A stretch of DNA of 64,000 nucleotides from Methylomagnum ishizawai. Lineage in GTDB: Bacteria; Pseudomonadota; Gammaproteobacteria; Methylococcales; Methylococcaceae. The stretch covers positions 669,501-733,500 of the forward strand of contig NZ_FXAM01000001.1 in assembly GCF_900155475.1 (NCBI RefSeq). The letters run 5' to 3'. The notes under the pieces were generated by a model. That model searched no databases. It was given only the letters and a program-made list of their open reading frames with translations, and was not told the DNA's origin. This document shows, piece after piece, positions 7,767-11,230 of the stretch (positions within the stretch are counted from its first letter, which is position 1; each line of letters opens with the position of its first letter). A program made the position numbers and the translations under genes.

Positions 7767-8615
7767 AAGCTGTCTGGCAAAAGCTCAGACACATTTTGCA
7801 AGGGTGGTCCTCAGCATGGCGATGCGGATAACGTTCTCGGCGGTGGCGGTAAGGGTTTCGAAATCCTTGCTCAACCGGCGGAACGAGCCGAACCAGGCGA
7901 ACGTCCGCTCGACGATCCAGCGTTTCGGCAGGACGGCGAAGCCGTCCACGATCCTTTGCGAGATGTGCAGGACCAAGCCCAGCTTTTCCTCCACGTATTC
8001 GACCGCCGTGCCGCGATAGCCCGCGTCGCCGGAGAATGCCTCGATGCCGGGATGCTTCTCCGCCGCCCGGCGCATGACTTCGCAGCCGCGTACGGTGTCG
8101 CTCAGGTTGGCGGCGTGGACCTCGACATGCAGCAGGTGGCCCAGGACGTCCACGACGATGTGCCGCTTGTGCCCCTTCACGCGCTTGCCGCCGTCGATCC
8201 CCCGCTCCTCGCTGGCGTACTGGGTCTTGACGCTCTGCGAGTCGATGATGGCGTAGCTCGGGGAACCGGCCCGATGCTTTTTTTTCGATGCCGCGCGTTG
8301 ATCTCGTCCAGGGCCGTTTCCCAGACCCCGGCCTTGTTCCAACGGCTGAAATGGTCGTACACGGTCTGCCAGGGCGGGAAGTCCTTCGGCAGCATCCGCC
8401 ATTTGATGCCGCCCTCCACCACGTACAGGATGGCGTCCACCACCCGCTTGCGCGGGTGCTTGCTGGCATTGCCACGCCGGTCCTTCGGGCGGAAGTGGTG
8501 TTCGATCAACGACCATTCTTCGTCGCTCAGGTCGCTCGGATAGCTCATGTCGGGGAACCTTGGAAAATCAACGGGGGCTTGACTCTACATGAATTCCTTT
8601 TTGCCAGACAGTTTC
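7766..8615 (-). mobile_element. IS5-family insertion sequence, 850 bp, complete
   Basis: The ends are inverted repeats of 17 bp with one mismatch: GAAGCTGTCTGGCAAAA at 7766-7782 and its complement (A in place of the second G) at 8599-8615. They are flanked by the direct duplication TTA at 7763-7765 and 8616-8618. The single transposase gene needs a frameshift at A8, typical of the IS427-like group of the IS5 family. The element sits between the stop codons of a methyltransferase and a PilZ gene. Intact ends, flanking duplication and transposase suggest a recent, possibly active copy. Confidence 0.93.
7785..8548 (-). CDS. IS5-family DDE transposase, made by -1 frameshift
   Basis: The first frame starts at 8548 (MSYPSDLSDEEWSLIEHHF) and carries the N-terminal IS5 domain, with KRVVDAILYV and GIKWRMLPKDFPPW. 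The second frame carries the catalytic half: YAIIDSQSVKT (first Asp), an internal GDAGYRG block (second Asp) and RWIVERTFAWFG (catalytic Glu in the Y-(2)-R-(3)-E-(6)-K-like region). The frames join at eight A residues on the coding strand, 8278-8285 in window coordinates. Moving from frame one to frame two is a -1 slip, the known way IS427-type elements limit transposase. Confidence 0.9.
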
Positions 8616-8620
8616 TTAGC

Positions 8621-8983
8621 TCAAAACAGGGCGACCAGTTGGCGCAGACGTTCCTGGTTGGCGGGGGAAATATCGATGATGTGGAAACCGACCCAATACC
8701 GGCCCGGTTCCAGGCTGGTTTCGGTCCATAGGCTTTCGGCCCCGAATTCGGCCTGGGCGCCCTGGCCGAGTTCTCCAGGCAGGTCCAGGGCCAAGGCATA
8801 GACCCGGCTGGCGGGCACCACCTCCGGGCATAGCAGCATCAGGCCGTCCAGGCCGATATCGGCCAGATGGCCCAGTGCTACGCCGCGGTTGAGGTCGCGG
8901 ACTTCCAGGGGGTGGGTCACCATTTTTCTCGGGTTTTTCCTTCTATCCATCGTCGCCGTTCGCTTTTGGGTTATTGTTGTCAA
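8621..8983 (-). CDS. PilZ domain protein
   Basis: The 120-residue protein is a single PilZ beta barrel. The c-di-GMP-binding signature is present: a basic segment DRRKNPRK (RxxxR-like, about residues 13-20) and LADIGLDGLML (the D/NxSxxG-type loop, with Ile for Ser). The end VGFHIIDIS is a usual closing strand. PilZ proteins act as c-di-GMP receptors for motility, exopolysaccharide or pilus control; the partner is not visible. Translation may start at Met1 or at Met12, just before the RxxxR element. Its stop codon is six bases inside the IS border, so the IS did not damage it. Confidence 0.8.
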   Translation of the reverse strand: MTTITQKRTATMDRRKNPRKMVTHPLEVRDLNRGVALGHLADIGLDGLMLLCPEVVPASRVYALALDLPGELGQGAQAEFGAESLWTETSLEPGRYWVGFHIIDISPANQERLRQLVALF

Positions 8984-9293
8984 GCACGCGCCCAGGTTCC
9001 ACGCGGAGGTTTGAACAGCGTCTGGGACATAAGGGTATCCGTGGCGTAGGCGGTCTTCAATCCCGCGCCCCGCGCCTTGTGCTGGAATGGCAATTGCTCT
9101 AAGGTACGCCGCTTTGCGAAAGGGCGGAAATCAAGGGGTTGGGGGCTGACGGGGGCGCTTTCCGGCCACCCTGGCCCATCGCCGATGGGATTCCGCCAGG
9201 CTTCCAGGGCGGCGCGGATGCGCCCGTCCACCCTCCGGGCCACGCGCCCAATTCCCCGCACCGCTTCCAGAATTCCATCCTAAGGAGATCATC
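8984..9293. other. Intergenic region upstream of the pyrophosphatase-like gene
   Basis: This 310-bp stretch lies between two divergent genes. Frames that stay open give arginine- and proline-rich text without a domain. A strong Shine-Dalgarno (TAAGGAG at about 9280-9286) marks the start of the right-hand gene. I see no RNA gene. Confidence 0.5.
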
Positions 9294-11177
9294 ATGGCCT
9301 TATCTCTCATGGCCTATGCGCACGAGGGGGCGCGGGCGGTCCTCGGCGACCGCCGCGCCAAGACCCTTGTTTTGTTGGGACTCGCCGAAGCCTTGTGCGC
9401 GGGCGGGGTCTTGGGTTGGGGCATGGCCCTGGCCTTCGTGGCGGGTTTGGCCGCCGTGGTCTATGGCGTGCTCGCCCTGCGTTGGATCGGCGCCAAACCC
9501 CAAGGCGACGACCGGCTGCGGCAAGCCGCTTCCGGGCCGGGGCGGGCGATTCGTTCTTGTTGGGAGTCCCGCTACCCTGGGCTGGCCAAGTTCGGCGGGG
9601 CCGGGTTCGTCCTGATTGCCTTGACCCTGGGCTGGGCCGTGGCCTGGGGTTGTGCCCTGGGTGTGGCCTTGGCCGGGTGGCTGGTTTGGGCGGGGGTGGA
9701 GGTTCCGGCCTTGGCCCGGCACCGTGCCGTCGAAGCCGCCCGTTCGGGGGCGGGACCGGCTTTCGCCGTGGTGTTGCGGGGTGGGGCGGCGCTGGGCGGA
9801 TTGGCGCTCGGTTTGGGCGTGTTGGGGCTGGCCGGGTATTACAGCCTGCTCATGGCTGCGGATGCCCAGGAAGCATTGCGGCCCCTGGTGGGCGTGGCCT
9901 TCGGGGTTTCCCTGGTGGCCTTGGCGGCGCGGCTGGAAGCTTGGGCCGGAGGCGGCGCGGCGGTGGTGCTGGATTTGTGCGAGACCTATATCGCCACCCT
10001 GGTCGCCACCATGTTGCTGGGCGGATCGCTGGCGGCGGAGGCGGGCCGGGCCTATCCCTTGGTGCTGGCCGGTGTCGGCTTGGCCGCGGCCTTGGCGGCG
10101 GTCGCGGTCGCCCGCCTCGACAAGGGCCGCAAGATCGTCGAGACCTTGTATCAGACCGCGTTGCTGGCGGTGGGTTTGGCGCTGGTTGTGGATTATCCGG
10201 CGACCCTGGCGGCTTTCGCCGGTGTCGGCGCGGAGGTGTCGGCCCATGGCGTGTTCTTCGCCGCCGTGTTGGGCGGGGCGCTGACCCTCTTGCTGGCGGT
10301 ACTGGCCGAATACCATGCGGACAACGGGCGGGGGCCGGTGCGGCGGATCGTCGAAGCCGACGCCATCGGTCCCGCCGCCCGGATCGGGGCCGGGTTCGCG
10401 GTGGTTTTGCGCTCGACCACGGGGCCGGTGTTGGCGGTTTGCGCTTGCCTGTGGGGTGCCCACCAAGCGGCGGGCTTGTATGGCATCGCCGTCGCCGCCA
10501 CGGCCTTGGTGTCCCTGGCCGGGGTGTTTGTCATGCTGGATGCCTATGGGAGCGGATTGGACGGATTGGCCGCACAGGCCGGTTTGCCCAAAACCGCCCG
10601 CGACGCCACCGCCACCCTGGATGCGGCGGGCGCGGCGGTGCGGCCCGTGGTCCGGGCTTACACCGTCGGCGCGGCGGGCTTGGCGGCCTTGGCCTTGTTT
10701 TTCGCCTATGCCCGCGGGCCGGGGGGCGCGGTGGCGCTCGATCTCGGCGATTACCGGGTTGTCATCGGTGTGTTCGTCGGCGGTTTGTTGCCGTATTTGT
10801 TCGGGGGTTTGTTGATGGAAGCGGCGGGCCGCGCGGGCCGCGATATCCAGGAGTCGCTGGTGCCCGCCGCTTTGCCGCTGGCCGTGCCGGTCCTGGTCGG
10901 CGTGGCCTTGGGCAAGGCGGCGTTGGGCGGGTTGATGGTCGGCGTGATCGTGACCGGCCTGTTCCTGGCGGTCGCGATGCTGATCGGCGGCGCGGCCTGG
11001 GAAAGTGCCAAGCGCTATTTTGGCAACAGCGTCCGCGCCAAGTCCGGCCCGGAATCGGGGGCCGATCCGGTGGGCGGGGGCGAGGATGGCTTCTACCAAG
11101 CCGTGGTCGGCCCGGCTCTGCCGCCCCTGATGAAACTGGTCAACCTGGTGGCGTTGTTGATTGTGTCCTGGTTGTAG
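9294..11177 (+). CDS. H+-pyrophosphatase-like membrane protein lacking the catalytic loops
   Basis: The 627-residue, almost entirely hydrophobic protein aligns by eye to membrane H+-translocating pyrophosphatases (HppA). Family landmarks kept include EGARAVLGDRRAKT near the N-terminus, LCETYIATLVATMLLG, an AYGSGLDGLAAQAGLPKTA segment, FVGGLLPYLFGGLLM, and GPALPPLMKLVNLVALL at the C-terminus. Missing are the DVGADLVGKVE, DDPRNPA and DNVGDNVGD loops that bind Mg2+-pyrophosphate, which should sit just before LCETY, and the GDTVGDPFKDT motif near the end. It is shorter than the usual 660-700 residues. Pyrophosphate hydrolysis therefore looks impossible. It could be a partner or regulatory paralogue, or a relic kept in frame. 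TAAGGAG eight bases before the ATG supports the start, and a terminator follows. Confidence 0.8.
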   Translation: MALSLMAYAHEGARAVLGDRRAKTLVLLGLAEALCAGGVLGWGMALAFVAGLAAVVYGVLALRWIGAKPQGDDRLRQAASGPGRAIRSCWESRYPGLAKFGGAGFVLIALTLGWAVAWGCALGVALAGWLVWAGVEVPALARHRAVEAARSGAGPAFAVVLRGGAALGGLALGLGVLGLAGYYSLLMAADAQEALRPLVGVAFGVSLVALAARLEAWAGGGAAVVLDLCETYIATLVATMLLGGSLAAEAGRAYPLVLAGVGLAAALAAVAVARLDKGRKIVETLYQTALLAVGLALVVDYPATLAAFAGVGAEVSAHGVFFAAVLGGALTLLLAVLAEYHADNGRGPVRRIVEADAIGPAARIGAGFAVVLRSTTGPVLAVCACLWGAHQAAGLYGIAVAATALVSLAGVFVMLDAYGSGLDGLAAQAGLPKTARDATATLDAAGAAVRPVVRAYTVGAAGLAALALFFAYARGPGGAVALDLGDYRVVIGVFVGGLLPYLFGGLLMEAAGRAGRDIQESLVPAALPLAVPVLVGVALGKAALGGLMVGVIVTGLFLAVAMLIGGAAWESAKRYFGNSVRAKSGPESGADPVGGGEDGFYQAVVGPALPPLMKLVNLVALLIVSWL

Positions 11178-11195: not shown

Positions 11196-11224
11196 AAGGC
11201 CGACCGGGGGGTCGGCCTTTTTTT
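11196..11224 (+). terminator. Rho-independent terminator after the pyrophosphatase-like gene
   Basis: A perfect 10-bp stem (AAGGCCGACC at 11196-11205 with GGTCGGCCTT at 11210-11219) and a GGGG loop lead into a run of T. It lies 18 bp after the stop codon. Confidence 0.9.
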
Positions 11225-11230
11225 ATGGGC

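Follow-up and report, generated by a model that had tools for sequence, protein, structure and literature searches.

What becomes of an H+-pyrophosphatase (mPPase) when the loops that bind its substrate are lost and the rest of the protein stays? The question is raised by hppAx, a gene of the methanotroph family Methylococcaceae found in a stretch of 64,000 nucleotides of the Methylomagnum ishizawai genome (NZ_FXAM01000001.1, positions 669,501 to 733,500), which is called the window below. A first-pass annotation, made from the letters of this DNA, had described hppAx as a maintained HppA homologue without its pyrophosphate-binding motifs and had suggested a regulator or partner subunit, or a new function. 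Here, we describe what the gene has lost and kept, where it is likely to have come from and which other mPPases of the family have degenerated, and then weigh the functions that it could still have.

An mPPase homologue without its catalytic loops

hppAx is an mPPase homologue: PF03030 (H_PPase) from Pfam matches it with an E value of 6.5e-79 and 266.7 bits (cut-off 29.7), the match being split into three stretches, and all 11 PDB sequences that it matches are mPPases. Its matches to 13 NCBIfam mPPase models all stay below the respective cut-offs (best 360.9 bits versus 859; TIGR01104, 259.3 bits versus 651.9), and no fused extra domain was found with Pfam. The frame is open throughout its 627 codons and is flanked by the strong ribosome-binding site and the terminator that had been described for it, both of them also found in the sister species (Table 1); a consensus scan found no sigma-70-like promoter.

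Table 1. Positions of hppAx, its signals, its divergent neighbour and its informative codons in the window
Feature	Position	Strand	Remarks
PilZ-domain gene, divergent neighbour of hppAx	8621..8983	-	Also at the pfp-hppA loci in two relatives (order PilZ, pfp -> hppA)
Ribosome-binding site AAGGAGAT	9282..9289	+	Read from sequence; same letters in sister species
hppAx, loopless mPPase homologue, 627 aa	9294..11177	+	Single open frame; orthologue in sister species
Codon of S206 = S5.43, ionic gate, kept	9909..9911	+
Codon of R213 = R5.50 (VrPPase R242), kept	9930..9932	+
Loop 5-6 deletion junction, residues 217/218 (38 aa of orthologue missing)	9942..9947	+	Alignment
Codons of D227 (D6.50), L-C, E230 (E6.53) and T231 (6.54), ionic gate, kept	9972..9986	+
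Cytoplasmic loop 13-14 deletion junction, residues 517/518 (35 aa missing)	10842..10847	+	Alignment
Codon of K614 = K16.50 (VrPPase K742), kept	11133..11135	+
Intrinsic terminator, 10-pair stem, 4-base loop, T tail	11196..11226 (hairpin 11196-11219)	+	Also in sister species

Aligned to an intact orthologue that has the loops (711 aa, genome G014), which served as the reference, hppAx lacks residues 218-255 (38 aa of loop 5-6, with DVGADLVGKVE, DDPRNPA and DNVGDN), residues 565-599 (35 aa of cytoplasmic loop 13-14, with EVRRQF) and residues 468-470 (NAG), which follow the DAYGPITD motif. The first-pass annotation had reported four motifs as absent; the three of loop 5-6 are indeed deleted, but in loop 15-16, which is rewritten rather than deleted, GDTVGDPYKDT has been substituted, with one residue fewer. 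All remaining gaps are of 1-4 residues, the alignment is collinear outside the two deletions and 277 of 627 aligned positions are identical. Among 36 competent mPPase rows (genome G026 being entered twice), 194 columns are invariant, of which 148 are aligned in hppAx and 77 retained. Of the hydrolytic centre, which we take to comprise 12 PPi- and Mg-binding Asp, Glu, Lys and Asn positions of loops 5-6, 11-12 and 15-16, hppAx keeps two; the full set is present in 25 of 25 distinct rows of type A, the hppA type within which hppAx falls (see below), and in 10 of 10 other competent rows. The sequence thus makes a strong case that hppAx is a catalytically dead pseudo-mPPase, and since the PPi site is missing from it, PPi-driven pumping is very unlikely. 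Supply of the loops in trans was considered and rejected, as PF03030 finds just two loci in this genome, hppAx and a canonical copy.

A structural model was predicted with AF2 from an alignment of hppAx and 60 relatives, canonical mPPases, and has a mean pLDDT of 78.4 and a pTM of 0.83, with the fold partly imposed by that alignment. Its pLDDT falls below 50 at residues 1-8, 12-14, 217-219, 514-516 and 578-599, including at or near both deletion scars and the rewritten loop. All 36 chains that Foldseek retrieved with the model at E<=0.001 are mPPases, and VIA-align superposes it on the Thermotoga maritima mPPase over 575 residues at 2.0-2.1 Å (8b24_A, Z 42.3, 2.0 Å); matches outside the mPPases, at Z 7.1 and below, were rejected as unspecific. 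The predicted fold resembles the Na+-PPase of T. maritima and the H+-PPases of V. radiata and P. aerophilum alike (Z 40-42, rmsd 2.0-2.4 Å over 553-579 residues), whereas hppAx, as known here from sequence and model, is without their PPi site. Because the input alignment was canonical, the model speaks for compatibility with the 16-helix fold and is not proof of it. Of the helices and loops that were to be accounted for by alignment, loops 5-6 and 13-14 are gone, while the helices, which are collinear in the alignment and superpose in the model, appear to be kept.

Selection on hppAx and its origin in a pfp-linked lineage

The one other genome of the genus that was compared, the sister species G001, has an orthologue with 92% identity from which the same two loops are missing, so that the loopless form is found beyond a single genome, as the first-pass annotation had thought worth checking. 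Between the two species, dN is 0.039 and dS 0.182, giving an omega (dN/dS) of 0.212 (bootstrap 0.150-0.308), which lies inside the range of ten neighbouring genes (0.012-0.248); omega of the canonical mPPase is 0.104. When the gene was divided into four segments, dN peaked (0.096) in the C-terminal 55 codons compared, where the rewritten loop 15-16 lies. There is no frameshift and one 2-codon indel, although missing stops alone say little, as 29% of neutrally simulated copies stay open. hppAx is under purifying selection and its frame is maintained, as had been claimed. An assembly artefact is ruled out by the loss of the same loops in two species, and a pseudogene or dying frame by omega. Slow decay after the loss of pfp, in a frame that has not yet broken, would fit a long stem in the tree (2.49), an omega roughly double the value for the canonical mPPase (0.21 versus 0.10) and the presence in G001 of a broken mPPase copy of another lineage. 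It is largely refuted, and we consider it improbable, given an omega that is far below 1 (0.15-0.31) and within the range of the neighbours, a frame free of frameshifts, a conserved ribosome-binding site and terminator, and two loop deletions that are both in frame and common to both species.

In a sample of 38 genomes of the family, the hppAx protein finds matches at E<=1e-60 in 28, two of which are hppAx itself and the others type-A hppA, with which its N-terminus and full length align at about 40%. In the tree, hppAx lies inside type A, with supports between 88/84 and 95/79 going in and of 92/87 for its join with the G006 copy G006a, a join that carries a long-branch attraction warning. The stem of hppAx measures 2.49 changes per column and its tips 0.03-0.07 since the two species split: a burst of fast evolution was followed by constraint. 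Type-A hppA is linked with pfp, which encodes a PPi-phosphofructokinase (PPi-PFK): hppA directly follows pfp in G004, G014 and G009, and by coordinates 17 of 17 PRK14072 (pfp) genes in the family adjoin an mPPase gene. Co-location of pfp and hppA in chemoautotrophs is described in a section of PMC4949241, and a passage of PMC7298851 reports that pfk-deleted strains of another methanotroph, once evolved, had acquired a mutation in hppA, which fits a functional tie between the two genes. A divergent upstream PilZ gene, like that of hppAx, is also present in G004 and G014, that is in two of five intact type-A loci compared (L047, L048), and was not found at the other three (L049, L051, L052) nor at the degenerate G006a locus (L042). 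hppAx resembles the K+-independent type of H+-mPPase (hppA) that is encoded beside PPi-phosphofructokinase in its N-terminus, full-length alignment and ionic-gate residues, in the PilZ neighbour of two relatives and in its apparent position in the tree, and differs from it in the deletion of loops 5-6 and 13-14, the rewritten loop 15-16 and the loss of hydrolytic residues and of pfp. In both Methylomagnum genomes only matches of 35-37% to pfp were found, none of them over the PRK14072 cut-off, and a search for residual pfp sequence upstream of hppAx gave nothing above chance (best E 0.21-0.68). hppAx would accordingly be read as a vertical descendant of a pfp-linked mPPase of the K+-independent type; neither this descent nor the retained ion gate had been noted in the first-pass annotation. 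The near neighbours of hppAx encode PilZ, a CAAX protease, a cyclase-like protein and CYTH, with none downstream on the same strand. An insertion sequence (7767-8615) with a DDE_Tnp_1 transposase, inverted ends and a 4-bp TTAG duplication lies between a methyltransferase gene and the PilZ gene, and is not in the sister species.

Across the 38 genomes, PRK14072 exceeds its cut-off in 17 and PRK06555, the other PPi-PFK subfamily, in 18, with no overlap; in G020, G032 and G035 neither does. Both Methylomagnum genomes carry PRK06555 (717 bits for the PFK present), together with a canonical mPPase of the K+-dependent type (A at 12.46; 747-aa frame), which is the canonical hppA elsewhere in the genome that the first-pass annotation had proposed to seek. 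A soluble family-I PPase is absent from both and present in four of eight genomes tested. Type A is intact despite PRK06555 in G002, G003, G019 and G036, among others, and so the loss of pfp alone does not kill it. Where a second mPPase is present, type A is intact (G002, G003, G022, G035), loopless (G000, which is M. ishizawai, and G001) or not found (e.g. G012, G020, G010). In a genus now without pfp, with a PPi-PFK of the other subfamily and a second, K+-dependent mPPase, hppAx may have been freed. At a locus of another genome (L094, G007:C334), an mPPase of the K+-dependent type, which ends at the contig end, and a PRK06555 PPi-PFK gene stand side by side in divergent orientation.

The ion gate in hppAx and in other degenerate mPPases

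Positions of the ionic gate and the coupling funnel were taken, by generic numbers, from the parts of the review PMC6882861 that list them. The gate set comprises S5.43, D6.50, E6.53, S/T6.54, D/N16.46 and K16.50, and the funnel set R5.50, K5.58, D6.39, D11.50, K12.50, K16.38 and D16.39, with D6.50 counted with the gate; VrPPase numbers were assigned via alignment to 4a01. Five of the six gate positions are kept in hppAx (S206, D227, E230, T231, K614), N16.46 having become Pro, and two of the seven funnel positions, R5.50 and D11.50, of which the latter is Glu in the sister species; K12.50 is replaced by Arg. Position 6.57, Val in the intact orthologue and Ala in hppAx, was left out of the gate count. 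The gate is retained over other positions with Fisher p values of 0.012 in M. ishizawai and 0.023 in the sister species. Because many of the lost positions vanished in one deletion, the comparison was also run on aligned positions only, which gave a weak result, 5/6 versus 4/12 (p=0.066), and a hypergeometric test of the four charged gate residues gave p values of 0.037 in M. ishizawai and 0.068 in the sister species.

An mPPase is present in 115 of 151 genomes of the order, and among the matches listed, which are complete for the family of hppAx itself, long-frame mPPases of <=530 bits occur in this family only (G050, G079 and G127, which belong to other families, have weak second matches that are not among them). 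Long mPPase frames of 812-858 aa with reduced scores (576-592 bits) were noted in another family, f8 (G096:C81, G105:C113, G140:C18). The degenerate mPPases of the family are hppAx, the s copies of a Methylococcus-like genus, g9 (G009, G017, G023, G027, G031 and G034, the last split over contig ends), G013s, G006a, G032x and the broken G001 copy. Five g9 s copies keep 6/6 gate and 2-3/12 hydrolytic positions (Fisher p 0.003-0.010), and count as one event, not five, because these genomes are close relatives; G034s, broken off by the contig, keeps 4/6 and 1/12. The gate is not preferred in G013s (gate 4/6, hydrolytic 5/12, p=0.36) or in G006a (5/6, 4/12, p=0.14), and G032x (L091:1566-3653; 696 aa, best match 75 bits) keeps 1/6 and 2/12; G006b is nearly intact (hydrolytic 11/12). 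G006a lies directly beside a retained pfp (L042/L095).

The same three-gene cytochrome operon adjoins the s copies (L034-L038 in g9, L039/L040 in G034), G013s (L041), G006b and, in partial form, the broken G001 copy, and we take all of these as one lineage apart from hppAx. The broken copy consists of two overlapping frames (L092:6778-8378 and to about 11440), and its adjoining cytochrome operon matches are partial too. In g9, genes for a cytochrome c (214 aa), a 401-aa protein and a 455-aa protein are followed, in this order, by the divergent s copy, two ORFs, SCO1, an oppositely oriented ORF of 665 aa and a gene of the methane/phenol-hydroxylase kind resembling mmoX. The 455-aa protein has a weak cytochrome hit only, and the name 'cbd' for it comes from the literature on a Methylococcus cluster. 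The arrangement in g9 matches this copper-responding cluster of Methylococcus capsulatus Bath, whose 'pyrophosphatase' is proposed, in the sections of PMC4831470 and PMC517821 that deal with it, to help maintain the membrane gradient. By gene order only, the g9 s copy appears to correspond to the 'pyrophosphatase' of this copper-regulated sMMO cluster, which those sections treat as an active pump. The s copy is like hppAx in having lost the hydrolytic centre and kept the gate (five genomes), and unlike hppAx in its separate lineage and locus and in its loop 5-6, which is shortened and altered and not cut at the same points.

Further loopless forms were sought by three routes. A contig scan with the hppAx protein returned 75 stretches, none of them a relative, and in a scan with alignment A1, 79 of the nearest 80 of 585 relatives gave an ORF, 77 with the three motifs tested; the exceptions were L113, without an exact DDPRNP, and L155, which ends with its contig and is without GDTVGDP. 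A 53-aa query across the loop 5-6 cut matched only M. ishizawai in 369 class genomes and 398 phylum genomes drawn evenly; since the class sample included G009, of the s lineage, and the query did not match it, divergent loopless forms would be missed. In the open-access literature searched, we found no paper on a catalytically dead mPPase and none linking Methylomagnum with a pyrophosphatase. To our knowledge, pseudoenzymes have not been described among mPPases. hppAx is like pseudoenzymes in general in that the fold is kept, catalysis is lost and constraint continues.

Possible functions of a pump without its engine

As hppAx is under selection, has lost the parts that split PPi and keeps the bundle and most of the gate, it probably has a new job. 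We tentatively favour, at somewhat less than even confidence, a pseudo-mPPase that now acts as a gated cation conduit independent of PPi. After catalytic loss, hppAx would serve as a conduit, valve or leak for cations (H+ or Na+), gated by membrane potential or pH, and cations driven by the membrane gradient would pass from an opened cytoplasmic vestibule through the largely kept gate. We place this reading foremost because hppAx retains R213 and five of six gate positions but has lost its hydrolytic centre and the greater part of the funnel. Against it, the Pro at 16.46 might distort helix 16, and the gate Asp, Glu, Arg and Lys may have stayed simply as buried salt bridges that the fold needs. 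A proton leak without gating would waste energy, and the cell could tolerate such a conduit only if it were gated; no device for gating was found in hppAx. A wider proposal is that one family has, on two or more occasions, made a cation channel or valve that does not depend on PPi out of a pump by excision of its catalytic loops, both times keeping the gate and losing the engine; this seems doubtful to us, if far from negligible.

The same residues could also hold the fold of a non-transporting membrane scaffold or sensor whose helix bundle binds a ligand or partner. This is a serious but on balance unlikely alternative: the bundle is kept (Z about 42 to TmPPase, in a model from a canonical alignment), G032x has lost the gate and neither G013s nor G006a keeps it preferentially, but hppAx has no fused domain, its near neighbours are ordinary, none being encoded downstream of it in the same direction (partners looked for in the window and at one sister locus), and residues of the ion path are among those retained. 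For the regulatory or partner subunit of the first-pass annotation, which would form heterodimers with the canonical K+-dependent mPPase, we found nothing specific. That mPPases are homodimers, as stated in a section of PMC6882861, and that both Methylomagnum genomes have the canonical copy would suit it, yet the two proteins are about 26% identical and of different subfamilies (A in the canonical copy versus K/R at 12.46), their loci lie far apart (0.68 versus 4.06 Mb of a 4.63-Mb contig) and dimer-interface positions 13.59 and 13.62, given in that section, fall in the deleted loop 13-14, all of which makes the idea quite unlikely. Improbable, too, is a secondary carrier that uses the old funnel as an open vestibule for a new small substrate; without loops 5-6 and 13-14 the protein would be open towards the cytoplasm and two active-site positions, D467 and K655 (G014 orthologue numbering), are kept, but the neighbourhood holds no substrate clue and a second conserved binding set was not identified.

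hppAx is also a caution that family-level annotation can label dead mPPases as active, with possible consequences for published models of Methylococcus bioenergetics; if the g9 s copy is the 'pyrophosphatase' of the sMMO cluster, the proposal of an active pump in Methylococcus needs revision. How hydrolysis is coupled to the gate in mPPases is disputed, with three mechanisms set out in a part of PMC6882861. With a natural, selected mPPase that has most of its gate and no engine, the gate could be studied in isolation.
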